Source: Fidelibacterota bacterium 408169 (GTDB lineage Bacteria; Fidelibacterota; Marinisomatia; Marinisomatales; TCS55). Taken from it: a stretch of 64,000 bases of DNA. The stretch spans positions 62,001 to 126,000 of the forward strand of contig NNSG01000005.1 of assembly GCA_002256485.1 (NCBI GenBank). The letters are read 5' to 3'. Made by a program: the position numbers and the translations under genes. The notes beneath the pieces are model-generated. The model had not been told where the DNA came from and did not search any database. It saw only the letters and a program-made list of their open reading frames with translations. Below are positions 1,081 through 51,266 of the stretch, in pieces (positions within the stretch are counted from its first letter, which is position 1; every line of letters begins with the position of its first letter).

Positions 1081-4191
<3,111 letters not shown>

Positions 4192-4333
4192 GAAGGGAAT
4201 ACCTTTATATACTGGAGACACGTTTCCATTGGGAGCAGATTGTTCGTCATGATGATGTCATTTTGAGCATAAACCAGCGAAAACTAGTCATTAAGTTAAG
4301 TAAATGATAGGTAGAATTATCAGTGAAATTTTT

Positions 4334-10175: not shown

Positions 10176-10177
10176 TT

Positions 10178-32365: not shown

Positions 32366-33385
32366 ATGAATAGTACAATTAACATCGGAATCATCGGTTT
32401 CGGACGAATAGGCCGCAATCTTCTGCGAATTGGTTATAATAATCCTCATTTAAATTTTGTTGGTATCAGCGATTTGGCTGATCCAGAAGCATTGGTGTAT
32501 TTGCTCATGCATGATACTGTATATGGTCCAGTGGAAGATGAAGCTGTCTTGAAGGATCATCATATCATAATTGGTGAACAAAATGTTCGAATACTTCCAG
32601 GTGGAGGTCCCGGTTCTCTTCCTTGGGATGCTCTGGGAGTTGATATTATAATCGACTGTACCGGCAAAATATGGTCTCGAGAAACTTTAGAAAAATATCT
32701 TGAGGCTGGCGCTAAAAAAGTGATTGTTACAACACCGCCTGAAGATCCCGTAGACCGTATAGTTGTGATGGGCTTGAATGATAAAGATATTTCTAATGAT
32801 GACAAGATTGTTTCCCCTTCTTCCTCCACCACCCAGGTATTGGCACTAATGCTGGATATTTTGGATAAAGAATACGGCTTGGAGAAAGCCATGATGACCA
32901 CTGTCCATGCTTATACTTCAGATCAGCCTCTGTCTGACAGTGTCCGCTCTGATCTTCGCCGAAGTCGATCTGCTGTAGAAAATATTATTCCAAACCAAAC
33001 TCGTTCTCCCAAACTTGTAGAAACCATCCTTCCTCAATTTAAGGGGAAAGTTGAAGGCATTGCGTTTAATATACCTATTCCTGATGGATCGTGCGTGGAT
33101 CTTACATGTGAATTAAAAAAAATTCCTTCGATCCATGAAGTGAATTCCCTTATGAAATCTATTTCTGAAGGACCTCTTGCGCCTATTATTGGCTATACTG
33201 AAGATCCTATTGTTTCCAGTGATGTGGTCGGTGACAGCCATTCCATGATTTTTGATTCAAAAGCAACCATGATAGCTGCAGATAATCTACTTAAAACAAT
33301 TTGCTGGTATGATGATGGTTATGGTTATTCTCAACGAATATTAGATCTGACAAAATCCTATTGTGATTTGGAGAACGTTTCATGA
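32366..33385 (+). CDS. GAPDH-family protein lacking the catalytic cysteine
   Basis: A 339-aa protein of clear GAPDH fold: G-F-G-R-I-G-R Rossmann motif at the start, catalytic-domain strands and C-terminal W-Y-D-D-G-Y-G-Y-S. The active site is degraded. The usual S-N-A-S-C-T-T-N-C is S-P-S-S-S-T-T-Q-V here, with Ser154 (codon TCC at 32825-32827) in place of the nucleophilic Cys. The general-base His is retained (V-H-A-Y-T, His181). The phosphate-binding T-G-A-A is R-S-P-K, and the Arg of A-M-R-V-P is Asn (A-F-N-I-P). It overlaps the functional gapA-like gene by 4 bp (ATGA). It may be a regulatory subunit, or a partner in a hetero-oligomer; Ser could also support a different reaction. No frameshift. 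Confidence 0.9.
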   Translation: MNSTINIGIIGFGRIGRNLLRIGYNNPHLNFVGISDLADPEALVYLLMHDTVYGPVEDEAVLKDHHIIIGEQNVRILPGGGPGSLPWDALGVDIIIDCTGKIWSRETLEKYLEAGAKKVIVTTPPEDPVDRIVVMGLNDKDISNDDKIVSPSSSTTQVLALMLDILDKEYGLEKAMMTTVHAYTSDQPLSDSVRSDLRRSRSAVENIIPNQTRSPKLVETILPQFKGKVEGIAFNIPIPDGSCVDLTCELKKIPSIHEVNSLMKSISEGPLAPIIGYTEDPIVSSDVVGDSHSMIFDSKATMIAADNLLKTICWYDDGYGYSQRILDLTKSYCDLENVS

Positions 33386-34380
33386 GAATTGCATTAAATG
33401 GATTTGGTCGTATCGGTCGTACAGTATTCCGCATTCTGAATAATCAAAAAGATTTTCAAGTTGTAGCTATTAATGACTTAGCGGACAATGATGCGTTGGC
33501 GTATCTACTTAAATATGATACTGTTATGGGACGGCTAAAAGATACTGTTTCAGTAAAAGACGGAATTTTAAAAACAAGTAACCATTCAGTTAAAATGCTT
33601 AACGAGCGTGATCCTGCCGCCTTGCCATGGACTGAATTAGGTGTCGATGTTGTGATTGAAGCAACGGGTGTCTTTAGAACTCAAGAGCAACTCCAAAATC
33701 ATTTGGAAGCAGGAGCAGGAAAAGTTATCCTTACAGTTCCCGCCAAAGATGAAATTGATTATACTCTTGTTATAGGTGTTAATGAAGATGGTCTTGCCTC
33801 TGATCATAAAATTGTATCCAATGCATCGTGTACCACAAATTGCCTTGCCCCAATGGCAAAAGTGTTGAATGATGCTTTCGGAATTGAATATGGTGTTATC
33901 AATACGATTCATGCTTATACAAACGACCAGCGTTTGGCTGACGTTCCTCATTCGGACTGGCGGCGCAGCAGAGCAGCCGCAGAAAATATTATTCCAACAA
34001 CCACTGGCGCTGCCCGAGCTGTGGGAGTTGTTTTGCCCGAACTCAAAGGAAAACTAGACGGCATTGCCATGCGCGTTCCTGTTCCTGACGGATCGATCGT
34101 GGATTTGAATGTTCAATTAAAAACTGATGTCAATGCCGATGACATTCGTCAAGCGGTTAAAGAAGCAAGTGAGACTGACCGCTTGAATTCCATCTTGCAA
34201 TACGAAGATACGCCCATTGTTTCTTCAGATATTATCGGCAATCCTCATTCATCTATTTTTGATGCACCTTTTACTTCGGTTATTGATAAGCGATTTGTAA
34301 AAACCCTTAACTGGTACGATAATGAATGGGGTTATTCTAACAGAGTGGTGGATCTAATTAATATTTTTAATAATAATTAA
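33382..34380 (+). CDS. gap: Glyceraldehyde-3-phosphate dehydrogenase, type I
   Basis: A 332-aa catalytically complete GAPDH: G-F-G-R-I-G-R, catalytic Cys150 in S-N-A-S-C-T-T-N-C, the base His in I-H-A-Y-T, T-T-G-A-A-R phosphate site, A-M-R-V-P and closing N-W-Y-D-N-E-W-G-Y-S-N-R. The Asp in I-N-D-L-A-D predicts NAD preference. It oxidises glyceraldehyde-3-phosphate to 1,3-bisphosphoglycerate in glycolysis, or runs in reverse. Second gene of the operon, coupled to the Cys-less paralogue by ATGA. G3P made by DeoC next door and from glucan breakdown both feed this step. Confidence 0.97.
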   Translation: MRIALNGFGRIGRTVFRILNNQKDFQVVAINDLADNDALAYLLKYDTVMGRLKDTVSVKDGILKTSNHSVKMLNERDPAALPWTELGVDVVIEATGVFRTQEQLQNHLEAGAGKVILTVPAKDEIDYTLVIGVNEDGLASDHKIVSNASCTTNCLAPMAKVLNDAFGIEYGVINTIHAYTNDQRLADVPHSDWRRSRAAAENIIPTTTGAARAVGVVLPELKGKLDGIAMRVPVPDGSIVDLNVQLKTDVNADDIRQAVKEASETDRLNSILQYEDTPIVSSDIIGNPHSSIFDAPFTSVIDKRFVKTLNWYDNEWGYSNRVVDLINIFNNN

Positions 34381-34576: not shown

Positions 34577-36889
34577 TTATTTGAGCAGCAATATTTTTTT
34601 ATTTTTTACCTGATTACCAACCTGTACTCTTACTAACCAGATTCCTGAAGGTAATTTTTCCCCTTCATTATTTTTACCATCCCAATTGATTCTATGTTGT
34701 CCTGTTGATTGTTTGGATAAAATTATTGTCTTTTGTTTTCTGCCTAGTAAATCAAAAATACTTATATGAACAAATGCGTCATTTTGCAAATTGTATTGAA
34801 TTTGAATTGAATTATTAAATGGATTTGGATATACTATGAATGAAAAATCTTTTGGTTGAAATTCATTTAAAATATTCAATGATTGATTTGGCGCTAAAGG
34901 GGTTGGAGTCAAGAATGACCAGCTTTCACTACCATTTGGTAATCGACCAAAAGAAATATCTGCTGTTTGCTCTCCAAACGTTATAGAATCTATAACTGTA
35001 ACTCCATCCGGATTTATCAACCCAATGAATTCGCCATTTCCTGACAATTTGAAATTTGTATGTAATTCACCCTGTTCATCATCATTATCGCACCAAATTA
35101 ATAAATAATCATTTGGTGGAATAAATATATCAGATTCGGTAAATCTCCATTTTGTCAAATTATCTGATTTGTCTGTTAGATAATGGTTAAATAAGTACAC
35201 AGTATCATTTGATGTATTATATAATTCTAACCAATCATCGAATTCTCCCATTTCATCTGTATTAACAGCGTCATTCCGTGCTAAAAATTCATTAATGAAA
35301 ATTCCTTCAGTAATTGCGGATGTTACGATTTCAATTATCCATTCACCTGTAGAAGGGAAAACACCAGTGATTTGATTTATATTAGTTGTCAAAAATTGTA
35401 ACCCAATTTCACCAGATGATTCTAGTGGTGGAATGGTTACAGACCAGCGATCGGTTTCTTCTACAATTATTGATCCAGGTATTGAATTATCTACCATACT
35501 ATAACTATTGAACGAACCGTTATTATAATTGTGGATAATAACATTAATCTGATCGATTTCCGGGAAACCAAAAGCCGATGCATTTATTGTAATCGAATCA
35601 CCAGTAAGAGGAATTTGAGGCTCCCAACTCACATTATATATTGAAGGTTCAGTTGAAATATAATTTAATTGATTTTCCAAAGATCCTGTTCGCTCAATAA
35701 AAAATTCTTTTAGTCCTCGCTTTATATGTTGATTTGTATAACCTGTTTCTGAGTAAGAGTTGTTGAAATCACCAAACGTAAAACCATAATCAAGAGTTCG
35801 ATACATATCATAAAATGCAGAAGTATCAATCATAGCTTTGGTGCTGTCGATCCAATCTTCCCATAATTCAAGCGAAAAATAATGGTCCATGTAAAAGGAA
35901 ATAAAATGAGAAAATAGGTTTTTGTATGGATTACTATCAAAAATTAAATCAGCTAAAGGCCGGTCAGAATCATCGATCAAATAGTACGAATATGGGTCAA
36001 TGGTTGCCCAGTCTACATTAAACCAGTCTACCCCAAAGGTGTTATCATAATCGTATGGAATCAACTGAAACTGATCAATTGCTGGATCATGATATAAATA
36101 GAAATTATTCCTTAGGGAACGGTAATCATCCCAGCTGCCAGTGAGAATATTAATTGCTAAGTATTTTATAAATCCGGATACATCTAAAATATACTCTAAT
36201 GAATCGGGGTCATTGTTTATTATATTGATCAATCGAGCCAACTGGGCATAGTTATATTCGTCTTTATTTGTTTTAAGCTCGTAAGGTCTATATCCATCTA
36301 TCCAAGGATAATAGTCTTCGGGGTTAGGTCCACGATAGGTTAAATCTGCTGGCCAAATACATTTCCACAAGTTGCCGGAATCATTCGCATAATTTTTAGA
36401 TAAAAAAGTATCATCAATATGCTCAATAGATATATAAAGTCCATAATATTCTTCATTGATATATACTTCCATATGACATGCTCTGGAAGATTTTATCCCA
36501 ATTTGTTGAAATAAATCCCAACACAGTTTACTGCGAGTGATGGAAACATCATTATGTTCGCCATTCAGGTTTATTTTTTCAACATCATAAAAATCTCTAC
36601 CTTGGACAAAATGATTAAAATCCAATTTAAACGATTTTTTTTGCGAATATCGGGAAGTGTTTCCACGGAGTCTAAAACCAACATTTTCCACAGTCTCATC
36701 AATATAACTATTTTGAAAATGAATTTCTGCTATATGCAGAGAGTCACTTTCTACATTATTATACATCCAAACTAAATCAGATGAATCAACTGTTATATCT
36801 ACTCTACCCACAATGGAGTCATCATATAGTTTCCAGCTCTCATCAGCAAAAACGAGAGACACCAAAAGCATAAATACAATTTGTCTCAT
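34577..36889 (-). CDS. CotH-family kinase-like protein with LTD and T9SS sorting domains
   Basis: A 770-aa secreted protein. Start set at ATG 36887-36889, one base after the GH13 gene stop, since it opens a signal peptide (RQIVFMLLVSLVFA); an upstream ATG five codons earlier overlaps that gene. Residues about 30-400 form a CotH domain: F-R-L-R-G-N-T-S-R, S-F-K-L-D-F, L-N-G-E-H-N-D and G-L-Y-I-S-I-E-H-I-D-D, then Y-D-Y-D-N-T-F-G. CotH proteins are atypical kinases of secreted proteins. An LTD (lamin-tail-like) domain follows near 535-650 (I-N-E-F-L-A-R-N-D). The end (about 685-770, Y-P-N-P-F-N-N, K-K-I-L-L-L-K) is a T9SS type A sorting domain. Likely co-transcribed with the GH13 lipoprotein. 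Its target is unknown. Confidence 0.88.
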   Translation of the reverse strand: MRQIVFMLLVSLVFADESWKLYDDSIVGRVDITVDSSDLVWMYNNVESDSLHIAEIHFQNSYIDETVENVGFRLRGNTSRYSQKKSFKLDFNHFVQGRDFYDVEKINLNGEHNDVSITRSKLCWDLFQQIGIKSSRACHMEVYINEEYYGLYISIEHIDDTFLSKNYANDSGNLWKCIWPADLTYRGPNPEDYYPWIDGYRPYELKTNKDEYNYAQLARLINIINNDPDSLEYILDVSGFIKYLAINILTGSWDDYRSLRNNFYLYHDPAIDQFQLIPYDYDNTFGVDWFNVDWATIDPYSYYLIDDSDRPLADLIFDSNPYKNLFSHFISFYMDHYFSLELWEDWIDSTKAMIDTSAFYDMYRTLDYGFTFGDFNNSYSETGYTNQHIKRGLKEFFIERTGSLENQLNYISTEPSIYNVSWEPQIPLTGDSITINASAFGFPEIDQINVIIHNYNNGSFNSYSMVDNSIPGSIIVEETDRWSVTIPPLESSGEIGLQFLTTNINQITGVFPSTGEWIIEIVTSAITEGIFINEFLARNDAVNTDEMGEFDDWLELYNTSNDTVYLFNHYLTDKSDNLTKWRFTESDIFIPPNDYLLIWCDNDDEQGELHTNFKLSGNGEFIGLINPDGVTVIDSITFGEQTADISFGRLPNGSESWSFLTPTPLAPNQSLNILNEFQPKDFSFIVYPNPFNNSIQIQYNLQNDAFVHISIFDLLGRKQKTIILSKQSTGQHRINWDGKNNEGEKLPSGIWLVRVQVGNQVKNKKILLLK

Positions 36890-36890
36890 A

Positions 36891-39233
36891 TTATTTTCGT
36901 TCAAGAAACATACTGGTATATGGTTTGAGTGTTAAAGAGTTATGATAGAATTTGTTTTGTGGATTTGTTGAATAATTTAATTTGTATTCATAACGAGGAT
37001 CTAATTCAACGATTTCATTTTTGGATCCCTGATTCATAGCTAACAAAATTTCTTCATTAAAATATTTCTTTAATAAAACCAGAATCGGACCATCTGCTAA
37101 TAATATATTTACATCTCCCATAGAAAGAGCAGTGTGTTCCATGCGTAATTCATTCAGACTGCTTATGACTTGTTTGTGTATGATTTCATTGAGATCCAAA
37201 TCGTCACCAAACCGCATCATTCGGCGATTATCCGGATCGCCCGCACCCATCATACCAATTTCTTCACCATAATATAAAACCGGAACCCCGGGTAAACAGA
37301 TATTCAAAGCATGAAAATTCTGGAGTTTACTATAACTTGATTTCTGTCTAACATCTCCCGGGGGATTTGAAAATGAACGTTCTGTTCCATTATCGCTAAA
37401 ATCCATTTGGCCATCGGCAAACGCCATAAATCGAACCTGATCGTGGCTGGATGTAATGTTACCCATAAGATGAATTGGATCAAACGTGATGAGATTGTTT
37501 TCAATCTCTTCAGCCAATTGTGAAAAGTCTGCTTTTTTTCCGCTAAACTGCCAACGAGCATTGAAATAAATACTGAAATTAAATTGAGCATCTAATTCAC
37601 CTGGGTTCACATAACTGCGGATTAGTTGATCCGATCCAAATGATTCACCAATTTGGTAATACGTTTTTTCATTGTTTTGTGCCCGCATTTTAGATGTCAA
37701 TTTTCTCCAAAAATCATGAGGAACATGCTTTACTGCATCCTGACGGAATCCATCTAAATTATAGGTTTCAAGCCACCAAACTGCATCATCAGTTGTTTGA
37801 TTGATTGCATCCGAATTTTTTGTAAAATCATAAGATGGAAGAAATGTATCAAACCATGTTGTCAAGCGCGTTTCTTCACTCCATAATCTGATATTTTTTC
37901 TACCGTCGGGCAAATTTACATTGCCATACCACTGTCTGTTATTATTGAAATATGGGTGTTCTTCATGAGTATGATTTGAAACAAAATCTAAAATTACATT
38001 TATATTTTGTTCATGAGCATTATTGACAATATTCTTAAAATCTCCAATCGTGCCAAAACGAGAATCTATCGTTCGCGAGGAAACAGGCCAGTAGCCATGA
38101 TAACCGGACACTTTTCTATAAGGTTCGATGAACTCTGTAAAAGCACTATCGGGCTGTTGTTGAATGGGTGAAATCCATAATGCAGATACATTCAAATCCC
38201 GAAAATATCCTTGTTCCAGTATTTTATAAATTCCCTTTAAATCGCCTCCCATAAAATTAAATAAAGCATTGAGATCAGGATCATTAATGATACTATTATT
38301 TTCAGAAGCCCCATCGAGAAAACGATCCACCATCAAACTGTATAAAACAGTAAAATACCATGAGTCGTTGTTATGATTGACTTTTAATGCTTCATCGCCA
38401 TTTATTTCAGTATGGTTTTCTAATATAACCCTGTCTTGTTCATCCACTGCTGTAACTCGCAATCGACCAGACTTTAACCCACGTTTATGAACAATAATTT
38501 TTCCTTTTTCCAAATCATAAACGTCCGGATGAAGAATTTCATTATCCAACGAGATGATGATATTCCTTAACAAGGCTCCATCGGAGGGAGGTTCATATTC
38601 AAATGTAAGGCGGTCATTAAATTCTTTTTCTTTAAAAATTTTTCCAGGTGATAAGGGTTTCAAACCTGATAAATCAAGTATAGAATTCCAACCTCCAATG
38701 TTATTGGATACAAAAACAGGATTGTCAGGATCAATGAGTTCTTCTCCATTTACTATAAACTTATATTCATGTCTAATGGGATCAAGAAAAACTGTTCGTT
38801 CTAATATTCCGTCACCATCTTCGTCTGCCATCTTCAGTTGGCTTCGTGACCAATCATTAAATCCACCCATAACGACTATTGAAGTATCATCTTCATTGGG
38901 TTGATACGTAAATGTATGGTTAATCATTTTTTTCAAACGAATCATTAAATTCATTTCTTGTCCATTTGCAGAGAAAGACACAACAGAAAATGTAGGTGTT
39001 TTCTCATTATTGGAAATGACTAATGTGTCAGTCTTTGAATTAAAATCAATATTTAGTTGAGAATGCTGGGAAAAATAAATAGATACTTCAGGTTGTTTTT
39101 TATACAACCCTAAATCAATTACTAAGGGCTTCCCTGGAGAAAACTGCTGAGTCGGGATAAAAAACATTACGCTTCCATTTTCCTTGGTACAGCCATTGAG
39201 AAATAATATTAATATTAATATAATTTTGTTCAT
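36891..39233 (-). CDS. GH13 alpha-amylase-type surface lipoprotein
   Basis: A 780-aa lipoprotein (L-N-G-C lipobox at about residue 15). N-terminal beta domains include a CBM48/AMPK-type glucan-binding module (G-G-F-N-D-W near residue 121), then a second E-set-like stretch and the GH13 catalytic barrel. Region I D-F-V-S-N-H (about 418), nucleophile Asp in G-F-R-Q-D-A-V-K-H (about 496), acid/base Glu in I-G-E-S-F (about 526), and transition-state Asp in T-S-S-H-D-Q (about 597). This combination resembles neopullulanase/cyclomaltodextrinase or SusA-like enzymes. It hydrolyses alpha-1,4-glucans at the cell surface or in the periplasm. Divergent from the GH13 at 39284 across a shared operator. Followed by the CotH gene. 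Confidence 0.9.
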   Translation of the reverse strand: MNKIILILILFLNGCTKENGSVMFFIPTQQFSPGKPLVIDLGLYKKQPEVSIYFSQHSQLNIDFNSKTDTLVISNNEKTPTFSVVSFSANGQEMNLMIRLKKMINHTFTYQPNEDDTSIVVMGGFNDWSRSQLKMADEDGDGILERTVFLDPIRHEYKFIVNGEELIDPDNPVFVSNNIGGWNSILDLSGLKPLSPGKIFKEKEFNDRLTFEYEPPSDGALLRNIIISLDNEILHPDVYDLEKGKIIVHKRGLKSGRLRVTAVDEQDRVILENHTEINGDEALKVNHNNDSWYFTVLYSLMVDRFLDGASENNSIINDPDLNALFNFMGGDLKGIYKILEQGYFRDLNVSALWISPIQQQPDSAFTEFIEPYRKVSGYHGYWPVSSRTIDSRFGTIGDFKNIVNNAHEQNINVILDFVSNHTHEEHPYFNNNRQWYGNVNLPDGRKNIRLWSEETRLTTWFDTFLPSYDFTKNSDAINQTTDDAVWWLETYNLDGFRQDAVKHVPHDFWRKLTSKMRAQNNEKTYYQIGESFGSDQLIRSYVNPGELDAQFNFSIYFNARWQFSGKKADFSQLAEEIENNLITFDPIHLMGNITSSHDQVRFMAFADGQMDFSDNGTERSFSNPPGDVRQKSSYSKLQNFHALNICLPGVPVLYYGEEIGMMGAGDPDNRRMMRFGDDLDLNEIIHKQVISSLNELRMEHTALSMGDVNILLADGPILVLLKKYFNEEILLAMNQGSKNEIVELDPRYEYKLNYSTNPQNKFYHNSLTLKPYTSMFLERK

Positions 39234-39283: not shown

Positions 39284-41296
39284 ATGATGAGGAATTTACA
39301 ATCTCTTACTAATCTCTGCACTTTTCTAATATTAATTTCGTGCACAAATAATCATATGAATATAAAAAACACTCAATTGTCTTATGGTGCTTTTGTATCT
39401 AAAAACAGCACTACTTTTAAAATTTATGCACCAAAATCTACTCATGCATATTTGGTTATTTTCGATTCTCCGGAAGCTGAAACTGGCACAGAATATGAAA
39501 TGGTAAAAAACGAAAACGGGGATTTTACTGTAGAATTAAATGATGCCGGTATCGGAACGTATTACGGGTATAGGTTGGAAGGACCGCTTAATGATCCTGA
39601 TGTAATTATCGCTGATCCATATTCAAAAGCGGCCGTCACACAAAATTCCATGCGGCATGTGGCAAAATCTCTCATCATTGATGACCATTATGATTGGGAT
39701 GGAGATTCATGGATGGAAATGGATCCACACGATTTGATCATTTATGAAATGCATATACGGGATATGACAACACATCCAACTTCCACAGCAAAACAAAAAG
39801 GAACCTATTTAGGGCTTATTGAGCCAGTTCAGAATGGCGGCATTGAACATATAAAATCTATGGGGATTAATGCAGTTCAAATTTTACCAGTTCAGGAATT
39901 TGCCAATGTGGAAGTTCCGTATAAGGATAAAACTGCACCCGTTTATAACGATTGGAATCCATACTCCCGGAATCACTGGGGTTACATGACAACATTTTTC
40001 TTTGCACCTGAATCCTATTATGCAACCGACGGAACAGATGTACCGGACTCTTGGAATGGCACTGATGGAAGAGCTGTAAAAGAATTTAAAGATATGGTCA
40101 AATCATTCCATAATGAGGGAATTGCTGTTATCATGGATGTAGTGTATAACCATGTATCTAATTACGACTGGCATCCGTTAAAATATATTGATAAAAAATC
40201 CTATTTCAGATTAGATGAAAATGGAGAATACATTGCCCACAGCGGCTGCGGAAATGATACCCGTTCGGAACATCCAAAAATGCGCCAACTCATTTTGGAA
40301 AGTTTGAAATACTGGATGTTAGAATATCATATAGATGGTTTCCGTTTTGACATTGGTAATTTAATAGATGCTGAAACAAGACAATTAATTATAGATGAAT
40401 TGCAGGCTCTTAATCCAAACGTCATCATTTTAGCCGAACCTTGGGGCAATGGTTATGATCCTCAGGGATTTTCCGACATGGGTTGGTCATCTTTCAATGA
40501 TCAGTTTCGCGATGGACTGAAAGGCAGCACTTGGGATATAAACGATAAAGGATTTCTTTTCGGGCAATTTCGAGAAAACGATGATCAACAATTTTTACAA
40601 CGATTGGTTATGGGATCACTCCGAGATTATGGCGGTCAATATGTTCAATCCATCCATAGTGTTAATTATTTGGAATGCCACGATGATTACACATTTGGTG
40701 ACCGACTTCGAATCACCGGTGGTTTTGTAGATAAGGATGAAAAAATTACAAATAAGAAAACCAATGCTCTTGTAGAAGGTAGATTGCTTGATATGAGTAA
40801 GCTTGGTGCTTTATTTTTGTTTACAAGCCAGGGAATTGTATTCATGCATGAGGGACAGGAATGGGCTCGTAGTAAAGTCATTGCTGCCACACATGCTCCT
40901 GATGATCATGTTGGTATAATCGATCATAATTCATACGAAAAAGATAATGATACAAATTGGCTGAATTGGAATGAACGGAAAATGAATTCAGAATTGGTCG
41001 ATTATTATAAAGGATTGATTGAATTTAGAAAACAATATTCCGAATTTCGACACTCTGAACCAAGCGATTTTGATTTCATGGATGTGGGTGAAAATGTGGC
41101 TATCGCTTATTTATTGAAGGAGAAATTTATTGTAATTCTAAATGGAGAAGAGGAGCATACATTAGATATTAATTTACCCACTGGTCAGTGGAAAATTTTA
41201 GTGGACGGAAAAAAGGTATTACTTGAGAATCAAGAAACACTTACCGGAGAATTGTCCGTCCCTTCCTCAACTGGTTTGGTATTGATACGAAACTAA
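39284..41296 (+). CDS. GH13 pullulanase/debranching-type lipoprotein
   Basis: A 670-aa lipoprotein (L-I-S-C lipobox at about residue 20) with a CBM48-like N-terminal domain (about 30-120, T-T-F-K-I-Y-A-P) followed by a GH13 barrel. Catalytic regions: M-D-V-V-Y-N-H (about 283), nucleophile Asp in G-F-R-F-D-I-G-N (about 351), acid/base Glu in L-A-E-P-W-G (about 381), and Asp in E-C-H-D-D-Y (about 464). W-G-Y-M-T-T-F-F-F-A-P-E-S-Y-Y precedes the barrel, in the place of the Y-N-W-G-Y-D-P motif of type I pullulanases. These features fit a debranching or type I pullulanase-like enzyme. A beta domain closes the protein. Stop is 4 bp from the convergent GT gene stop. Confidence 0.88.
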   Translation: MMRNLQSLTNLCTFLILISCTNNHMNIKNTQLSYGAFVSKNSTTFKIYAPKSTHAYLVIFDSPEAETGTEYEMVKNENGDFTVELNDAGIGTYYGYRLEGPLNDPDVIIADPYSKAAVTQNSMRHVAKSLIIDDHYDWDGDSWMEMDPHDLIIYEMHIRDMTTHPTSTAKQKGTYLGLIEPVQNGGIEHIKSMGINAVQILPVQEFANVEVPYKDKTAPVYNDWNPYSRNHWGYMTTFFFAPESYYATDGTDVPDSWNGTDGRAVKEFKDMVKSFHNEGIAVIMDVVYNHVSNYDWHPLKYIDKKSYFRLDENGEYIAHSGCGNDTRSEHPKMRQLILESLKYWMLEYHIDGFRFDIGNLIDAETRQLIIDELQALNPNVIILAEPWGNGYDPQGFSDMGWSSFNDQFRDGLKGSTWDINDKGFLFGQFRENDDQQFLQRLVMGSLRDYGGQYVQSIHSVNYLECHDDYTFGDRLRITGGFVDKDEKITNKKTNALVEGRLLDMSKLGALFLFTSQGIVFMHEGQEWARSKVIAATHAPDDHVGIIDHNSYEKDNDTNWLNWNERKMNSELVDYYKGLIEFRKQYSEFRHSEPSDFDFMDVGENVAIAYLLKEKFIVILNGEEEHTLDINLPTGQWKILVDGKKVLLENQETLTGELSVPSSTGLVLIRN

Positions 41297-41300
41297 TATA

Positions 41301-42491
41301 TTACCTGTAACCGCCGTAACCTTTAACAGACTTTTCGGGCATACCCAGTTTTTCAGATAGGCTATTCAATTCTTTTATTTCTCTTGCATTGGTATTCAAT
41401 AAAATTTCTTTCCATTTTCCTTTGATCACTTCCGGGCGAAAATCATCTAATGCAGTTCGAGCTTGGTCTGCCATGGCTTGTCTCATATCTGCAGACGTAT
41501 TCCAAAACCTTTCAACAGCTAAAAGAAAATTATCAACATCTTTATTAAAGTCCTTATCAACCTCATAAACAAATACTGATTCAATTACGTTGGCTGTAAT
41601 TTCACTGGGGCCATCAATATTTTGTACTAATGCAGGGATTCGTCGATCCAGTGTTTCGCACATGGTATAACCGAAAGGTTCGTATATACCGGTAATGCTA
41701 TTGGCACCAATACTATTCCAGTAAAATTGAGCCGTTTCCTTATTTGAACTGAATGGAATAATGATAAGTTGTTTAGGATGTTTTCTTCCAAGTTCTTCCC
41801 AAAAAGGATTTCCCTGCTCTCCTTGATAATCTACTCCCATATTAAAGACACGAATATCTTTTCGTCCTGATTTTTCTACAGCAAAAATGGGTAAATCAGG
41901 ACGCTTTCGAGGGACATGTCTGCCAATATATCCAATATCATTTAATTCATAATTTGGTCGCCATGTATCCGTATCAAATTTTGGCTTATAGCTATTATAA
42001 ATAACATGTGGAGTTGATTCATATTTATCATACCCGAACGAAATATAATGTTGTTTTTCCGCTTCGGAGATAAGCACAACAATATCGGAATATTGAAATG
42101 TAATTTCCTGCTCGAAATAATTGCTGGTAATGGGTCCGCCCATATTTGTTATATGCTCCATTCGAATCAAGGAATGGCATACAGAAACCATGAGTTTATT
42201 AGGAAAAGTTTCTTTTATAGTTCGTGTAGTATCAAACGCCACCCATAAATTATTTATACATGCATCCAAATCTGCGAATGTATTTTTCACATCTTCAGGC
42301 CCGTGAATGATGCGTATCCCCGGATATCTTTCCGGAAAATCTGATGGCGGCTCATCTAATTGCGCCAGAAATACGGGAATAATTTCAATATCCTCGTCGT
42401 CCTGAAACATATCCAGAAAATTGAGAATCCATGTAGCTACTCCGCCATAGACAATGGGTGGAATTTCGTTTGTGAGTAAACCGACTTTCAT
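41301..42491 (-). CDS. GT-B glycosyltransferase, possibly glycogen synthase-like
   Basis: A 396-aa cytoplasmic GT-B enzyme. The N-terminus V-G-L-L-T-N-E-I-P-P-I-V-Y-G-G-V-A-T recalls glycogen/starch synthases and GT4 enzymes. The C-terminal domain has G-Y-I-G-R-H-V-P-R-K-R-P-D and a retaining-enzyme E-x7-E pattern (I-Y-E-P-F-G-Y-T-M-C-E-T). The sequence does not separate GT5 from GT4. As last gene of the trmB-malQ-phosphorylase-symporter-amylase operon it could make intracellular glucan from imported sugar. The donor (UDP- or ADP-glucose) cannot be told. Confidence 0.8.
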   Translation of the reverse strand: MKVGLLTNEIPPIVYGGVATWILNFLDMFQDDEDIEIIPVFLAQLDEPPSDFPERYPGIRIIHGPEDVKNTFADLDACINNLWVAFDTTRTIKETFPNKLMVSVCHSLIRMEHITNMGGPITSNYFEQEITFQYSDIVVLISEAEKQHYISFGYDKYESTPHVIYNSYKPKFDTDTWRPNYELNDIGYIGRHVPRKRPDLPIFAVEKSGRKDIRVFNMGVDYQGEQGNPFWEELGRKHPKQLIIIPFSSNKETAQFYWNSIGANSITGIYEPFGYTMCETLDRRIPALVQNIDGPSEITANVIESVFVYEVDKDFNKDVDNFLLAVERFWNTSADMRQAMADQARTALDDFRPEVIKGKWKEILLNTNAREIKELNSLSEKLGMPEKSVKGYGGYR

Positions 42492-42516: not shown

Positions 42517-45417
42517 CTATTTCAGCAAAATCATTTTGACAGTCTTCATTTTTTTACCGGATGTTAATCGTACAAAATAAACACCACTTGGGTGAGTTGA
42601 TCCGTCCCAAGTTATTGAAAATTCTCCTGGAGAAAGTTGTTCATCTATCAATGTTTTTACTACACGTCCCATTATGTCAACTATCTGTAATTGGGACTTA
42701 TGTGTCGATGCTACACTAAAATGAATAGTTGTTGCTGGATTAAATGGATTAGGAAAATTCTGACTCAAGCTGAATTCACGAGGAGTATAATTTTCATCGA
42801 AAGCATTTGTAAGAATTCCTTGTTCCGGTGGTTCGATGAAACTATCTGTATAAATATGGAATTCTCCAGGTAATAAAAATAATTGTTCATTTACATTTTG
42901 GACGTCTATACTATCACCGGAAAAATAATCATACCACACACCTGTATTATAAAACTGTGGATCTATGGATTGACCGGTCACACCAAAGTTACCGATGATA
43001 ATTGCATCCATTTCGCTGTGAGAAAGTCGAATTCGCTTCTTTCCGGTTGAACTACCAACGGATAATGAAACGTCAGTATCAGAACTATGAAAAACAGGAT
43101 ACTCTTTTCGCAACTGAATTAATGCTTGAAAAACTTTATATAATCTGCTCCGGTTTACATTATTTTGATAATTCCATAGTATCGGCTTTTCACAGACACG
43201 GCAGGGATCATCAATGCTCACATCATACCCCAGCTCACCAAACTGCCAAACCATTTTTGGTCCTGGAATGGTAAAGAAAAAAACCCCGACTGCTTTCATT
43301 CTGTTCAATGCAGTGGATAGATTTTTTATATTATAATCACCGGCACTGTTACCCCATGACAGGTTTTTGAACATGAGCCTTTCTTCATCGTGGCTTTCAA
43401 AATAAGTGACCACATGGGGATGCTCCCAACCACGTGTTTCGTAGTAACCCCAAGAAAAATCTGACTTACCATTGCTGTGATAGCCCATGGCAGCTTCAGC
43501 ATAATTATAATTGGAATTCCCCCACAAAAGCATTCCATAATCGGCCAATTCTTCCTCTTCAGAATTCTCTGCCAAATGTTCTAAAATCACATATACAGTC
43601 GAATCTACATCCCAAATTTCATCTGCCATGCGTTTCAACAAACGAATACGATCTGCATCATAAAGACTGCCCCAGGGATCATTGGATCCTTTAACATTAT
43701 TTCCAAACCCTTTAGTAAAATCAAAACGAAAACCATCAATACCATATTCTTCAATCCAGTAACGATTGATACGATCTACCAATTTTTGGGTATGGATACT
43801 TTCATGGTTAAAATCATTACCCCATTGAGCATCAGGATTGGTGAAGTTTGATTGAGTATTATACCACGGATTTTGCGGTGTAGGCGGCCCCCACTCCCCC
43901 ACATTATATAATCGTACAAAGGGCGATTGACTATAGGTATGGTTTAATACAATATCCATTATAACAGCAATTCCCCTATGATGACACTCATCTACAAATG
44001 CTTTTAATGCATTTTTAGGACCGTAATATTTATCAGGAGCAAAATAGAAACTAGGATTATATCCCCAACTGGAATTACCCTCGAATTCATTGAAAGGCAT
44101 CAGTTCAATGGCATTGATTCCTAGTCTTTCTAAATAATCAAGTGTATCTATGAGTGTCTGAAAATCGTGTCGAGCGATAAAATCCCGCACTAGTAACTCA
44201 TAAATGATCAATTCTTCCTTTGGTGCTCTATCAAATGAGTCGCTGTATTGCCAATCATATTGATTCTGATTCGTTTGTAAAACTGATGCTATATGATCAG
44301 TCTTTCCAATGGGATATTCAATTAAGTTTGGATATGTTTCTTCCGGAATCCACGGATCATTCCATTTATCCAACACTTTGTCAGCATAGGGATCGGCAAT
44401 ACGGATTTCACCATCTACATAATACTGAAATGCAAATTCTTCACCAGGCGTTAAATAATTCAGAGTTATCCAGAAATGAACTGAATCTTCAGAGCCCACA
44501 TCTTTCATCATATAGTAATCTTCGTCTACAATCCAATCATTGAAATCCCCAACAACATAAACAAATTCCTTATACGGAGCGAATAATGACAAGGACACCG
44601 TTACTACACCGCCATCGTAATAGGAAATTCCATCTTCAATATAATTGGGGCGTTGATTTTCAATAGGTTCATTATGAATCATTATATAAAACCGAGAGCT
44701 GTCAGTCAAACCGGTTGTATCAAATACAACAGCTGTTAGTTCGTGCATTCCCAGTGAATAATTTTGCAAATATAATTCAGTTGTCAATGTATCTGATAAT
44801 GATTGAGTATGGAGAGAATCATCAACGAGCAATCTTAATTCAGACATTTCAGTTCCGACGGCAGCGCCTGTAATTTCAACTGTAATCGTATCCGTCGGGA
44901 ATCCGAATACAGGAGCACGGCGAGGATCTCCAAAAGAGAAATCTACAAATGGAGAAACAACAATCGCTGTTACCCCGGGGGCATAGAGATTCAGAAATAT
45001 ATCAGCCCCACCAATATCTCTTCCGGTCTGGCTTCCATCGTGATTACGAAAAACAAATGCTAATTGAAGAATCTGTTCACCATTCGGAACACCATAATAC
45101 GCATGAGGAAATCCGATGTCCAGTTTCCACAAATCATTCCCCAGGGGAGTTAATTGTGTGTCATCGGTATTTTCTCCCCAATTTGTTTTTACATATTTCC
45201 AATCTGTTGGACCAGTGCTTGCTGTGGTGATTACACCGGCATGAGCCCATACTTCACCGGTAAACCCCATAAGTCCCTGATCGCCTTCAGTGGCATCAAA
45301 ATATACCGTGATGGAATCCCATTCCGTGGCATAATTGGGATCGGAATAAACAGGCGATTGACTAAATGCAGTCGAAACAAATAACAACAAGCAACATGTA
45401 ACCATTGATTTTTTCAT
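42517..45417 (-). CDS. T9SS-exported multidomain GH13 alpha-amylase
   Basis: A 966-aa exported enzyme: signal peptide (KSMVTCCLLLFVSTAFSQ), one or two N-terminal beta modules likely to bind glucan, an E-set/CBM48-like domain with V-V-G-D-F-N-D-W (about residues 285-380), the GH13 barrel (about 390-800), and a T9SS type A sorting domain (about 890-966, N-F-P-N-P-F-N-P). Region I D-I-V-L-N-H, nucleophile Asp in G-F-R-F-D-F (about 565), Glu in L-E-H-L-A-E-N (about 609), Asp in E-S-H-D-E-E (about 672). Fifth gene of the trmB operon, 1 bp after the symporter. It attacks extracellular starch or glycogen. Confidence 0.92.
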   Translation of the reverse strand: MKKSMVTCCLLLFVSTAFSQSPVYSDPNYATEWDSITVYFDATEGDQGLMGFTGEVWAHAGVITTASTGPTDWKYVKTNWGENTDDTQLTPLGNDLWKLDIGFPHAYYGVPNGEQILQLAFVFRNHDGSQTGRDIGGADIFLNLYAPGVTAIVVSPFVDFSFGDPRRAPVFGFPTDTITVEITGAAVGTEMSELRLLVDDSLHTQSLSDTLTTELYLQNYSLGMHELTAVVFDTTGLTDSSRFYIMIHNEPIENQRPNYIEDGISYYDGGVVTVSLSLFAPYKEFVYVVGDFNDWIVDEDYYMMKDVGSEDSVHFWITLNYLTPGEEFAFQYYVDGEIRIADPYADKVLDKWNDPWIPEETYPNLIEYPIGKTDHIASVLQTNQNQYDWQYSDSFDRAPKEELIIYELLVRDFIARHDFQTLIDTLDYLERLGINAIELMPFNEFEGNSSWGYNPSFYFAPDKYYGPKNALKAFVDECHHRGIAVIMDIVLNHTYSQSPFVRLYNVGEWGPPTPQNPWYNTQSNFTNPDAQWGNDFNHESIHTQKLVDRINRYWIEEYGIDGFRFDFTKGFGNNVKGSNDPWGSLYDADRIRLLKRMADEIWDVDSTVYVILEHLAENSEEEELADYGMLLWGNSNYNYAEAAMGYHSNGKSDFSWGYYETRGWEHPHVVTYFESHDEERLMFKNLSWGNSAGDYNIKNLSTALNRMKAVGVFFFTIPGPKMVWQFGELGYDVSIDDPCRVCEKPILWNYQNNVNRSRLYKVFQALIQLRKEYPVFHSSDTDVSLSVGSSTGKKRIRLSHSEMDAIIIGNFGVTGQSIDPQFYNTGVWYDYFSGDSIDVQNVNEQLFLLPGEFHIYTDSFIEPPEQGILTNAFDENYTPREFSLSQNFPNPFNPATTIHFSVASTHKSQLQIVDIMGRVVKTLIDEQLSPGEFSITWDGSTHPSGVYFVRLTSGKKMKTVKMILLK

Positions 45418-45418
45418 C

Positions 45419-47218
45419 TTACTCTTCGACTTTTACTTCCGTTGATAAGTGGCGGAACCAGTTGAAATATAATGCTACGGAGAGTATCGCTAGTATGATG
45501 AAAAGCACACTTACGTGACTCCATTGTTTTAATACAATCATCATTCCAAACAGAAAAAGGACAACTTGCCAAGGTACGGCAATAAACGTAGATAGAATGT
45601 CCCGTTTGTTTTCTGCATTCACTTTTTCCATAACATTCTTTGGCAAAGATTTCCGGACGGGATTCCAGTATCCAAAAGGACGGGTTACCTTATAAAAATT
45701 GTCCAGCACTTTTGCATCGGTGGGTTGTGTGAAGTATGTTCCAAGGACACACCCAACCAGTGAGCCTCCGCTGGCAATTAAAAAGGAATAATATTCAGGT
45801 AATCCTACTGGACCAATAGCACGATTGAGTAATGCAACGACCATCCCTAAAACTGTTCCCAATGCAAAACCATAACCATTAAACCTCCACCAATACCAAC
45901 GCAATAATTGCGGAATGAATAATCCTGAACCGATTCCCATGGTGATCCAGCCCCAAATATCATTAATATTTCTAATAGTATAGCTGAGAAGCACCGCCAA
46001 AATCACTATGACAACGGATGCTAGTCTACTGTGAAGCATGAGTGTTTTTTCAGTTGCTTGTGGATTCATATACGTTTGATACAAATCTTTTACCCAATAC
46101 GCTGCTCCGGCATTTACGGTAGAATCAAACGTCGACATTGCTGCCGCCATAAGACCGGCAACCAGTAATCCTTTCACTCCTGTTGGGATATAGGTTCGAA
46201 TTACCGTCGGCAATACTAATTCAGGATCCGCGATAACGTTACCGGTTGTAATTCCGTAATAAACACCTAACATAGCAAAAGATGCAATCAGCGGCCAGCG
46301 AAAGGACAGTAAAAATGTCCAAAATAATGACAGCAAACCCGCTTCACGATCATTCCGTGCTGCAAAGTAGCGCTGAATCATGTAACCACCAGTTCCAGAG
46401 GAACCTTCCAATGTGACTTTAAACAAATAGAACATGATCGCAATACCAAAAAAATTATATATAGAATATTGTGAATCTACCGGCATATTCATTTTCGCCG
46501 GTGGCGATATCCGTGTCCATTCTGTCAAAGTTGCTTTAATCTCCTGAAAACCGCCACTATTAAGTGGAACTGATACCATAAATTCATTTGGCAGTACAAC
46601 CGTCTTCATAGCAAGGCCACAGATAAACAGAATTGTTCCAAATATTAACACACCCTGAAAAACATCAGTCCATACCACACCGTACAGACCACTGGCGACT
46701 GTATAAATCATAGCCAGAACGATCATTATGAGAGCCGCCAGGTGCGGATCGATACCGAGAAAATCACCTACAAATTTTCCTGCACCTACTGCAAAATAGG
46801 TAACCATTGCTATGGTCATGATTATGGATGAAACAGCAGAAATAATTCTAGCGTAATCTCCTTCTTTTCCAGAACCAAATCTGAAATGCATCCATTCTGC
46901 CAGAGTCATTACATTTGCACGACGATTCCATTTCCCCATGAAAATCATAAGAAAAGCCATTATCAGAGTAACTCCTCCTCGGATTTCGATAAAAAATCCT
47001 TTTGTGCCTAAAGCATAAATGAAAGCTGTATTGATCATAGTACCTGCAACATCAGTATTTGACGCCATTCCTGAAGCACCCAAAACCCACCAAGGCAATT
47101 TCCGGTTTCCTAAAAAATAAGAGTCAATACCACTCGAAGCTTTACGTTGTAAGACAAGCCCTACACCTACTATCGCTATTAAATAAACTCCTACAATAAT
47201 GTAATCAATGGTCGTCAT
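45419..47218 (-). CDS. Sodium:solute symporter (SSS family)
   Basis: A 599-aa inner-membrane transporter with about 14 hydrophobic helices and SSS-family motifs: D-S-Y-F-L-G-N-R-K-L-P-W-W near residue 35, S-N-T-D-V-A-G, and G-L-M-A-A-A-M-S-T-F-D-S-T-V-N near residue 360. SSS members move sugars, myo-inositol or other solutes with Na+. Its place between phosphorylase and amylase genes suggests uptake of glucose or a maltodextrin, but the family does not show the substrate. It follows glucan phosphorylase by 14 bp. Confidence 0.92.
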   Translation of the reverse strand: MTTIDYIIVGVYLIAIVGVGLVLQRKASSGIDSYFLGNRKLPWWVLGASGMASNTDVAGTMINTAFIYALGTKGFFIEIRGGVTLIMAFLMIFMGKWNRRANVMTLAEWMHFRFGSGKEGDYARIISAVSSIIMTIAMVTYFAVGAGKFVGDFLGIDPHLAALIMIVLAMIYTVASGLYGVVWTDVFQGVLIFGTILFICGLAMKTVVLPNEFMVSVPLNSGGFQEIKATLTEWTRISPPAKMNMPVDSQYSIYNFFGIAIMFYLFKVTLEGSSGTGGYMIQRYFAARNDREAGLLSLFWTFLLSFRWPLIASFAMLGVYYGITTGNVIADPELVLPTVIRTYIPTGVKGLLVAGLMAAAMSTFDSTVNAGAAYWVKDLYQTYMNPQATEKTLMLHSRLASVVIVILAVLLSYTIRNINDIWGWITMGIGSGLFIPQLLRWYWWRFNGYGFALGTVLGMVVALLNRAIGPVGLPEYYSFLIASGGSLVGCVLGTYFTQPTDAKVLDNFYKVTRPFGYWNPVRKSLPKNVMEKVNAENKRDILSTFIAVPWQVVLFLFGMMIVLKQWSHVSVLFIILAILSVALYFNWFRHLSTEVKVEE

Positions 47219-47232
47219 GGTTATCTCACTTT

Positions 47233-48873
47233 CTAATAATATTTTTCCTGATAATCCCGAATCATTCGTTGGGCGGTAAATTGCACTCCTGTTTTAATTG
47301 AAGACTTCATCATCTGGGTCCACGTTGATTTATCACCATAATAAAGGGGTATAATTTTGTTCTCCAATATTGAATATAATTGATTAGCATCCTCTTCATC
47401 ATTGGGCTCTTCAGGGTTACCAATAGCCCATCCATTAATACCGTCCTCGCAGGCTTCTGCCCACCAGCCGTCCAGTACAGATAAATTTGGCACGCCGTTT
47501 AAGGCAGCTTTCATGCCGCTGGTTCCGGACGCTTCGTTTGGTCGCAATGGCGTATTCAACCAAACATCCACTCCGGATGTTATCAATCTCCCCAGCCACA
47601 TGTTATAATTTTCCAGAAAAATCACTTTCACTTTCCCATATAGATTATTGGCGTTTCGTACAATCTCTCGAATAATCTCTTTTCCCTGATCATCTTTTGG
47701 GTGGGCTTTTCCTGCAAATACAAATTGAATTTGGCCTTGAGATAAATGGACCAATCGATCCATATCCGAGAATAATAAATGAGCCCGCTTATATGTTGCA
47801 GCTCTTCTGGCAAATCCAATGGTTAATGTATTACGGCTTAATGCTTTTTGAACTTGGGCATTTGCATATCCCAACAATGATCGTTTTCGCTTTGCATGAG
47901 CGTTTAAAAGTGTATCATCAGATATGGTATCAATTTCTAAAAGTTTTTTCCCTTCTTTGTTCCAGTTTGGTAAATGATCATCGAATAATTCCCGCAATTG
48001 GGGACAAATCCAATAGGGATGATACACACCATTTGTAATGTGACCAATTTGTACTTGGGGAAATTGATCTTGAGCCACTTTGCCGTGGAGTTGTGAAACA
48101 CCATTGGCCGACCGGCTGAAATGAAGACCCAGTTCTGTCATATGTAAACGGCTGTTTTGGACCAATGACGGCAGGTTGAGGTTTTCCGGTATTAAGTCAT
48201 ATAAAAGATTTTTAACCCGCTCTACAGAAAAATGATCATGCCCTGCCGGAACAGGAGTGTGGGTCGTAAAATGGCATTTTCCCCTTACGTTATTTTCATC
48301 TTTGAATTCTTCCAGCAACTTTAACGTAAGAAATGAGCAATGCCCTTCATTCATATGAAATGTTTCGATATTGTCAAAGATTCCCAGATGCTTTAATAAG
48401 TGAATTCCTCCAAACCCTAAAATCGCTTCCTGCATAATTCGATGATCCTTGTTTCCGGAATATAACCGGAGTGAAATGATTCTGTCTTCTACAGAATTAC
48501 ATTCCAGATCTGTATCCATAAAATAAATGGGGACCGTGTGTCCATTCAACCCTTTGTAGTCCAAACGAAATACCTCAATTTGTACATCTCTGCCCATGAG
48601 GTGCAGAGGAAAGGTAAATTCTAATTTTTTTAATAATGGTTCCGGATCAAATTTTGGATACGTTTCAGATTGATTTCCATCCTCATCGATGCGCTGTTTA
48701 AAATATCCTTCTTTATACAATAATGTAATTGCACAAAACGGTAAATTCTCATCAGCGGCTGCTTTGATATGATCTCCGGCCAATACACCCAAACCACCAC
48801 TATATGTAGGAAGGCTGGAACTAATTCCAATTTCAGCTGAAAAATACGCTATTTTAATTTGTGATTTTGTCAT
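47233..48873 (-). CDS. Alpha-glucan (glycogen/maltodextrin) phosphorylase, short type
   Basis: A 546-aa GT35 phosphorylase of the short class (TIGR02094 type), shorter than the 800-aa GlgP. N-terminus K-I-A-Y-F-S-A-E-I-G and G-G-L-G-V-L-A-G-D-H. The PLP lysine is in G-T-S-G-M-K-A-A-L-N-G near residue 453. It releases glucose-1-phosphate from alpha-1,4-glucans with phosphate. Cytoplasmic: no signal peptide. It lies between malQ and the symporter, so imported maltodextrins can be extended by MalQ and phosphorolysed here. Confidence 0.94.
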   Translation of the reverse strand: MTKSQIKIAYFSAEIGISSSLPTYSGGLGVLAGDHIKAAADENLPFCAITLLYKEGYFKQRIDEDGNQSETYPKFDPEPLLKKLEFTFPLHLMGRDVQIEVFRLDYKGLNGHTVPIYFMDTDLECNSVEDRIISLRLYSGNKDHRIMQEAILGFGGIHLLKHLGIFDNIETFHMNEGHCSFLTLKLLEEFKDENNVRGKCHFTTHTPVPAGHDHFSVERVKNLLYDLIPENLNLPSLVQNSRLHMTELGLHFSRSANGVSQLHGKVAQDQFPQVQIGHITNGVYHPYWICPQLRELFDDHLPNWNKEGKKLLEIDTISDDTLLNAHAKRKRSLLGYANAQVQKALSRNTLTIGFARRAATYKRAHLLFSDMDRLVHLSQGQIQFVFAGKAHPKDDQGKEIIREIVRNANNLYGKVKVIFLENYNMWLGRLITSGVDVWLNTPLRPNEASGTSGMKAALNGVPNLSVLDGWWAEACEDGINGWAIGNPEEPNDEEDANQLYSILENKIIPLYYGDKSTWTQMMKSSIKTGVQFTAQRMIRDYQEKYY

Positions 48874-48884
48874 TGATACAAACT

Positions 48885-50444: not shown

Positions 50445-51266
50445 TTAGATTTTGTTTTGAGCTTGATCAATCAACTTGTCCAAATCAAACTCATCTTTTT
50501 GCATGATGTTTTTAACTGTTGGATTGATATCTATATTTAACCGTTGTCCAGCAAGGGTGATATCCAAGACAATGTAATCTGAAGCGATCTTCGTAATTGC
50601 AGGATTTGAAGTCCAAATAGCCCGCCCATTATTTTCTGATGCACTTCCCATAATCGTAATTTTATGATCAATAACCAGCACAACCTTTGGTTGCCAAATT
50701 TTTTGAATATCAACTTCATTTAAATTATATGAAATTGCTGTACCAAGAGGATTTTTTATAGTAGAAAATGAAAATATGATTATATCTACATTTCGATCAT
50801 TAGCAGCTATTAATTCTTTATCTACTTTTTCTAATTCTCTATTCCATACATTAATTATTATTGAAGAATTAGCATTATTAATTGCCTCACGCATTTTAAA
50901 AATAAGATTATCATAACCATGTATATGCCAGAAATCAAATGCTTCTTCATCTAGCTCCAAATTGTCTAAAGCTGTATTAAGGTTACCAATTTGATGTTCA
51001 TGCATGCTTTGCAAATGTTCAATAAGCGATGAAGGTGATAAAGGAATAAATTTTTTGGGAGAGTTTCCTTCAGAGTTAACTATACCCATTTTTTCCATGC
51101 GGTTCAATGTGGCATAGATTGCAGAACGAGGAATACCAGAATCTTTACTTATTTCATATCCGGTTGAAGGACTATTGTGCAGCAAACTTATATACGCTTT
51201 GGCAGCATTTGCTGAAAATCCAAATTGTTCCAGCAAATTGATAATGTCTTTTTCTGTTGCTGTCAT
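50445..51266 (-). CDS. TrmB-family transcriptional regulator
   Basis: A 273-aa regulator. Residues about 10-80 form the TrmB winged helix-turn-helix (A-K-A-Y-I-S-L-L, G-I-P-R-S-A-I-Y-A-T-L-N-R-M), then a short coiled segment (about 90-115) and a C-terminal ligand-binding domain of the phospholipase-D-like TrmB type. Archaeal TrmB proteins sense maltose, trehalose or glucose and control sugar genes. Here the gene heads the glucan operon and faces the plus-strand amylase operon; the perfect 22-bp palindrome at 51346-51367 lies in the shared gap, so it probably controls itself and its neighbours. The effector sugar is unknown. Confidence 0.9.
   Translation of the reverse strand: MTATEKDIINLLEQFGFSANAAKAYISLLHNSPSTGYEISKDSGIPRSAIYATLNRMEKMGIVNSEGNSPKKFIPLSPSSLIEHLQSMHEHQIGNLNTALDNLELDEEAFDFWHIHGYDNLIFKMREAINNANSSIIINVWNRELEKVDKELIAANDRNVDIIIFSFSTIKNPLGTAISYNLNEVDIQKIWQPKVVLVIDHKITIMGSASENNGRAIWTSNPAITKIASDYIVLDITLAGQRLNIDINPTVKNIMQKDEFDLDKLIDQAQNKI

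Follow-up and report, generated by a model that had tools for sequence, protein, structure and literature searches.

What is a protein of the CotH kinase family doing beside the alpha-glucan enzymes of a bacterium from a marine phylum? The question is raised by a gene of Fidelibacterota bacterium 408169 (assembly GCA_002256485.1, contig NNSG01000005.1), which was analysed within a stretch of 64,000 nucleotides, here called the window (positions 62,001 to 126,000 of the contig, forward strand); all coordinates below are those of the window.

The CotH protein and its surroundings

The gene is a single open reading frame on the reverse strand with an ATG start, coding for 770 amino acids, and the following features were assigned to it:

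34577-36889, minus strand: gene of the CotH-LTD-T9SS protein (open reading frame, Pfam, NCBIfam)
36842-36889, minus strand: probable signal peptide, MRQIVFMLLVSLVFA/DE (judged by eye)
35690-36673, minus strand: CotH kinase domain, residues 73-400 (Pfam PF08757, E 2.2e-51, and fold match)
35315-35656, minus strand: Ig-like beta-sandwich, residues 412-525 (fold matches)
34973-35311, minus strand: Lamin tail domain (LTD), residues 527-639 (PF00932, E 5.6e-13)
34592-34834, minus strand: T9SS type A C-terminal sorting domain, residues 686-766 (PF18962 and TIGR04183)

The initial annotation, made from the letters of the sequence, had named a CotH fold, an LTD and a T9SS sorting domain, and all three were borne out by profiles above their cut-offs: the CotH domain with 175.7 bits (cut-off 23.8), the LTD with 49.7 bits (cut-off 34.3) and the C-terminal end with both Por_Secre_tail (PF18962, 37.7 bits, cut-off 27) and TIGR04183 (41.5 bits, cut-off 23), the latter being the model for cargo with a type A sorting domain. 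A FlgD_ig match overlaps Por_Secre_tail at the same end of the protein. Among the Pfam matches at E <= 0.001 there was no dockerin, the module that a cellulosomal CotH protein would carry. The gene is the sole CotH match (E <= 0.001) in its own genome, which measures 2.47 Mb and is 95% complete.

The N-terminus of the protein resembles a Sec signal peptide when judged by eye. Those components of the T9SS machinery that were sought are present, PorU (590 bits, cut-off 420) and SprA_N (142 bits) in the host genome and a PorV-family gene within the window itself, which together with the sorting tail makes export via T9SS plausible; the protein is presumably located outside the cell. Between a TonB-type receptor and a PorV-family gene lies a gene for a protein of 1241 residues (57387-61112), for which no Pfam or NCBIfam match was found at E <= 0.001.

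An AlphaFold2 model of the protein (mean pLDDT 89.8) was built from 73 sequences. Alignment A2 consists of the window protein plus 72 of the 80 relatives described below; seven were removed because of ambiguous bases or length, and L111 was omitted as near-identical to L108. The top matches among solved structures were two of Bacillus cereus CotH, 5jda and 5jd9 (Foldseek E 2e-22). Residues 26-411 of the model superimposed on 5jd9 with Z 38.1 and an rmsd of 2.6 A, and 342-344 residues were aligned across the two structures. The predicted model thus has the CotH kinase fold, in accordance with the Pfam match.

According to an excerpt of PMC7821199, the D228Q and D251A variants of B. subtilis CotH are inactive. 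Just one pair of Asp residues 23 positions apart, 224 and 247, is found in the stretch of 5jd9 examined, and a profile alignment places this pair opposite the conserved motifs W-Asp-D-Y and P-Y-Asp-Y-Asp, that is, opposite Asp254 and Asp280 of the window protein. A second alignment agrees on these two residues, with chain numbers lower by 2 owing to dropped columns. The catalytic equivalence was drawn from the spacing in 5jd9 and the excerpt of PMC7821199, in place of the B. subtilis sequence itself:

36128-36130, minus strand: Asp254, putative equivalent of catalytic Asp228 of B. subtilis CotH (Asp in 81/81)
36050-36052, minus strand: Asp280, putative equivalent of Asp251 of B. subtilis CotH (Asp in 81/81)

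In the alignment of relatives Asp254, Asp280, Asp282, Asn283 and Glu156 are present in all 81 sequences, while Lys84 and Lys85 are present in 80, with one gap. The initial annotation had proposed an alignment of the active site and had regarded absent residues as evidence against a kinase; the residues are there, both Asp in every sequence. Such conservation argues for catalysis, and the CotH kinase may be active.

The genes on one side of the CotH gene are the following:

36891-39233, minus strand: GH13 lipoprotein, upstream of the CotH gene with one base between (PF00128, E 5.5e-40; lipobox by eye)
39284-41296, plus strand: pullulanase-type GH13, divergent (CBM_48 and Alpha-amylase, Pfam)
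41301-42491, minus strand: glycosyltransferase group 1 (PF00534)
42517-45417, minus strand: GH13 with T9SS sorting tail (PF00128 and PF18962)
45419-50414, minus strand: SSF symporter, carbohydrate phosphorylase family protein and 4-alpha-glucanotransferase (Pfam)
50445-51266, minus strand: TrmB-type regulator (PF01978)
51400-53241, plus strand: further GH13 (PF00128)

The lipoprotein carries a GH13 domain (138 bits) and an AMPK1_CBM domain, and its N-terminus, MNKIILILILFLNGC, is by eye an apparent lipoprotein signal. Its stop codon ends at 36891 and the ATG of the CotH gene begins at 36889, which agrees with the one-base spacing first reported. The lipoprotein and pullulanase genes are divergent with 50 bases between them; the best NCBIfam model for the latter is TIGR02104 (pulA_typeI), at 402 bits below its cut-off of 504.5. 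Neither the promoter count nor the terminator count was above that of shuffled sequences. Judged by these predicted functions, the surroundings of the CotH gene are an extracellular alpha-glucan locus. Two consecutive GAPDH-like genes (32366-34380) adjoin this locus, and homologues of the pair follow the GH13 lipoprotein in two other genomes (G013, locus L093, and G051, locus L097) without CotH between.

Linkage to alpha-glucan loci among relatives

Conservation of the pair was examined in 101 genomes, the own genome and 100 relatives, with a CotH match defined by at least about 49% identity over at least 290 residues. CotH matches were found in 16 of these genomes and orthologues of the GH13 lipoprotein also in 16, with both present in four, and in all four the two genes are adjacent and on the same strand. 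The pair, whose conservation the initial annotation had suggested checking, is therefore kept together where both members occur, but each was also found without the other, and the lipoprotein is the partner in just six of the 20 linked arrangements described below. Of the other 12 CotH genes, ten adjoin another alpha-glucan gene, the exceptions being G064 (contig edge) and G056. In 12 loci that have the GH13 lipoprotein without CotH, the hits listed in a search for CotH remnants were matches to T9SS tails and chance hits. A close CotH match and a pullulanase orthologue were both present in 11 of the 101 genomes, CotH alone in five, pullulanase alone in 16 and neither in 69 (Fisher p 1.4e-4, with no correction for relatedness or for incomplete genomes). 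G056, which is among the 11, fell outside the alpha-glucan group on the later tree. An exclusive link between CotH and pullulanase is not compatible with the genomes that have only one of them. Since 16 of the 27 genomes with a pullulanase orthologue have no close CotH match, the CotH gene appears to be optional. Order-wide, 23 of 130 genomes matched the query at E <= 1e-120, and among these it is again G056 that lies outside the group, with no GH13 next to its CotH gene.

To cover wider relatives, named genomes were scanned and the best 80 of 435 relatives were kept, and the linkage counts below refer to those 80. They are labelled Fidelibacterota, Ignavibacteriota, Calditrichota, Bacteroidota and a few others. 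The nearest named relative of the window protein in this set is from a Candidatus Neomarinimicrobiota genome (84% identity), which is assigned by the tree labels to Fidelibacterota (SAR406). All 81 sequences (window and 80 relatives) cover the CotH, Ig-like and LTD regions, and 77 the sorting tail. Seven additional genomes were not counted as new, the lengths of their contigs being equal to those of contigs already in the scan set. A GH13 gene lies within 250 bp of CotH in 19 of the 80 relatives, and in the window. In the other 61 no GH13 was found in the DNA examined, which extended at least 5 kb on both sides for 29 of them; the GH13 profiles were seeded from this phylum and may miss distant members. 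In 14 of these 61 loci the neighbours were sampled (16 proteins) and were mostly unrelated to each other, including CstA (twice), asparaginase, BrkB, amidohydrolase and TPR proteins. As a control with paralogues, 17 CotH ORFs were found in 30 short loci, and the six distant ones were without GH13 in flanks of only about 0.8-1.5 kb, which makes this a weak control.

The 20 linked cases fall into four types of partner. CotH lies directly after the GH13 lipoprotein in six (window, L103, L107, L112, L140 and L168), after a secreted-type GH13 in another six (L105, L106, L117, L133, L143 and L146), after a GH13 of 434 residues that follows the pullulanase in three (L126, L151 and L169), and divergent from the pullulanase in five (L104, L123, L127, L132 and L150). 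Pfam confirmed the GH13 domain of the 434-residue type for L126, and the combination of GH13 and T9SS tail for L105 and for one more gene of the L107 locus; the remaining partners were assigned by best matches to window proteins together with the GH13 profiles. Four partner types indicate that CotH is linked to the alpha-glucan locus and not to one enzyme. Linkage to the alpha-glucan locus characterises the examined group as a whole.

Several of these loci have peculiarities of their own. In L104 a gene of the GH43 beta-xylosidase type (3765-5435) adjoins CotH on the side opposite from the pullulanase. In L090 (G047, contig 101) the N-terminus of CotH is like that of G003 (L079) and the body is 95% identical to L150, with a pullulanase 80% identical to that of the window; the pattern suggests recombination or a chimeric contig. 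The contig of L146 is titled Euryarchaeota archaeon, and its CotH is so close on the tree to that of the Marinimicrobia locus L143 that its bin was probably mislabelled.

On a tree of all 81 proteins the 20 GH13-linked labels need two changes, compared with a mean of 18.1 for shuffled labels (0/500 as low; L109 counted as negative). The positives fall in two starred groups, one of three rows and one of 18, both inside a 22-row fork (SH-aLRT 94) that also contains the negative row L179 (no GH13) at the unresolved base of the group. Inside the group of 18 just one row is negative, L109, where the contig breaks off 97 bp upstream of the CotH gene, and in the best tree the 20 positives and L109 make up one side of a branch with support 62. 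With three more rows, a FastTree of 84 rows needed three changes for 22 labels, compared with 19.7 when shuffled. On these trees a single origin of the alpha-glucan linkage in Fidelibacterota is favoured rather than established, the support of only 62 and the three changes of the FastTree counting against it. A phage origin of CotH was also considered, and none of 85 pattern hits in viral contigs was confirmed as a relative. At the cut-offs used, three positions separate the alpha-glucan group from the rest (21 and 60 rows, respectively), among them the group-specific Asp90 and His93 just past the Lys84-Lys85 motif. With just three such positions, the CotH protein seems to have been barely retooled.

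Comparison with known CotH systems

With Bacillus CotH (5jd9, 5jda) the window protein shares the kinase fold over 342 residues and, putatively, the two catalytic Asp. As described in excerpts of PMC7821199, Bacillus CotH acts in assembly of the spore coat on the Ser-rich proteins CotB and CotG, whereas the window protein carries LTD and T9SS domains and belongs to an alpha-glucan locus in which no Ser-rich partner was found. Another parallel is offered by the cellulosome of Clostridium thermocellum, where a CotH module is also associated with polysaccharide-degrading enzymes: in the part of PMC6083626 used here, CseP (Cthe_0044) is numbered beside Cel9N (Cthe_0043), and Cthe_0239 joins LTD with CotH in the order LTD-LTD-Fn3-CotH. 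Both are listed there as proteins with a type I dockerin that belong to a cellulose-degrading complex, unlike the window protein, which has no dockerin match, ends in a T9SS tail and is found among alpha-glucan genes. The role of cellulosomal CotH is called unclear (PMC12484212, excerpt), and CotH accounts for about 20% of dockerin-domain proteins in five anaerobic fungi (PMC8665504, excerpt).

Gram-positive Pel loci likewise combine a polysaccharide locus with a predicted secreted CotH (SIR_1594), whose deletion in a streptococcus lowers Pel and aggregation (both from an excerpt of PMC12345266). The difference is that Pel loci serve synthesis of a polysaccharide and that their CotH travels with a polyphosphate polymerase and DUF4956 (PMC7112168, excerpt). 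A polyphosphate-linked CotH module was considered for the window gene and rejected, as the VTC-family polymerase PF09359 had no match in the host genome (95% complete). Stalk gene clusters of Zetaproteobacteria also include a CotH domain protein (PMC8250860, excerpt).

The first reading of the window had called a kinase in a glucan locus unusual. This can be retained in part: among the matches listed in a search of open-licence literature, by titles and starts of abstracts, there was no T9SS CotH protein in an alpha-glucan locus, but CotH proteins beside polysaccharide genes are already known from cellulosomes and Pel loci, as far as excerpts of the papers go (PMC6083626, PMC12484212, PMC8665504, PMC7112168, PMC12345266). 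What is new here is that one group of Fidelibacterota CotH proteins sits in predicted extracellular alpha-glucan loci, with similar proteins in several phyla. CotH modules recur in polysaccharide systems outside the cell, among them Pel loci and the cellulosomes of bacteria and fungi, with a role that is unsettled, and a group confined to a single type of locus would narrow the possible substrates to a few co-exported alpha-glucan proteins, so that the role becomes testable in a defined system. The linkage also adds a possible layer of control on alpha-glucan use in a marine phylum.

Possible roles of the CotH protein

We consider it about an even chance (roughly 0.5) that the protein is a surface CotH-family phosphotransferase which was recruited, probably once, to alpha-glucan acquisition and acts on a protein part of the apparatus. 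Such a phosphotransferase would be produced together with the extracellular alpha-glucan enzymes, would exit by Sec and then by T9SS, and would be displayed outside the cell, where it would most likely phosphorylate a protein component of the apparatus for capture and degradation of alpha-glucan or of its surface matrix. From a widespread family of exported CotH-LTD proteins, one lineage would have been recruited, probably once, into Fidelibacterota alpha-glucan loci and would have remained in them although the neighbouring GH13 gene changed. We infer both catalysis by the protein and the protein nature of its substrate. Against this reading we counted the optional nature of the gene, the lack of a substrate candidate in the acceptor tests described below, the small number of positions that set the group apart, and the relatives that span the same domains outside alpha-glucan loci (61 of the best 80 of 435). 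In a bolder and more tentative form, the whole would be a polysaccharide utilisation locus run with extracellular phosphorylation, in which a T9SS-exported kinase modifies the alpha-glucan surface apparatus of SAR406, drawing on a phosphate donor such as the ATP released by lysed plankton. It counts against a phosphotransferase that no ATP is to be expected in the periplasm or outside the cell. A 2023 paper by Lillington and colleagues reportedly describes hydrolysis of ATP by CotH proteins of fungi. Even for Bacillus, an excerpt of PMC7821199 treats the question of where CotH obtains its ATP as unanswered.

A non-catalytic scaffold or adhesin, in which kinase fold, Ig-like domain and LTD keep enzymes or glycan attached to the cell surface, would sidestep the lack of extracellular ATP, and for CotH of cellulosomes and fungi both a structural role and binding to plant cell wall have been proposed (excerpts of PMC12484212 and PMC8665504). 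In the model, residues 412-525 match the fold of amylase N-domains and of the corresponding domain in a GH5 mannanase (Z about 10-12), and the likeness to amylases is also in favour of a scaffold. This likeness of fold was not backed by sequence: the domain has no Pfam match, and a profile search with E up to 10 through the proteins of the window and of the collected neighbourhoods gave no Ig-like match outside CotH proteins. A starch-binding module was accordingly rejected, and the domain, which is covered in all 81 sequences, most of them outside alpha-glucan loci, is treated as a generic beta-sandwich. As the catalytic-site residues are conserved in 81/81 sequences, we regard a purely structural protein as doubtful.

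The initial annotation had suggested that the protein may modify surface glucan enzymes or act on something else, and phosphorylation, hence regulation, of the adjacent GH13 lipoprotein or of other amylases could be suspected from the one-base spacing, from the adjacency in 4/4 genomes with close matches to both and from the presence of some GH13 beside CotH in all 20 labelled rows. To look for acceptors, six GH13 lipoproteins with CotH were compared with 11 without. The former are slightly richer in Ser/Thr overall (11.4-13.3%) than the latter (10.2-12.2%), but no Ser/Thr column tracks CotH, the best one being matched by 57/200 shuffles, and there is no insert specific to the CotH set. Non-overlapping ORFs of the window of at least 100 amino acids were also scanned for stretches of 30 residues with 12 or more Ser/Thr, or with 18 or more Ser/Thr/Lys/Arg/His, and the sole ORF that passed (8850-10313, 12 Ser/Thr in 30) lies outside the alpha-glucan genes, among which there was no Ser-rich substrate of the Bacillus type. 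Nothing in these sequence comparisons marked the GH13 partner out as the substrate. As GH13 lipoproteins also occur without CotH and the GH13 partner differs between lineages, we find this proposal improbable.

Fam20B and POMK are secreted animal kinases with sugar acceptors, and CotH could by analogy phosphorylate the alpha-glucan or a surface glycan, which would suit a linkage to the glucan locus rather than to one protein. The locus, with its symporter, phosphorylase family protein and 4-alpha-glucanotransferase, handles unphosphorylated glucan, and no phospho-sugar enzyme was found among the locus proteins scanned with Pfam and NCBIfam, which makes a glycan kinase very unlikely. Slightly less probable still is that CotH is a passenger beside GH13 genes through shared descent only, as the grouping of labelled rows on the tree and the mostly unrelated neighbours in the 14 of 61 outside loci sampled could suggest, because the GH13 linkage stayed while partner gene and orientation changed, in proteins down to about 48% identical to that of the window.
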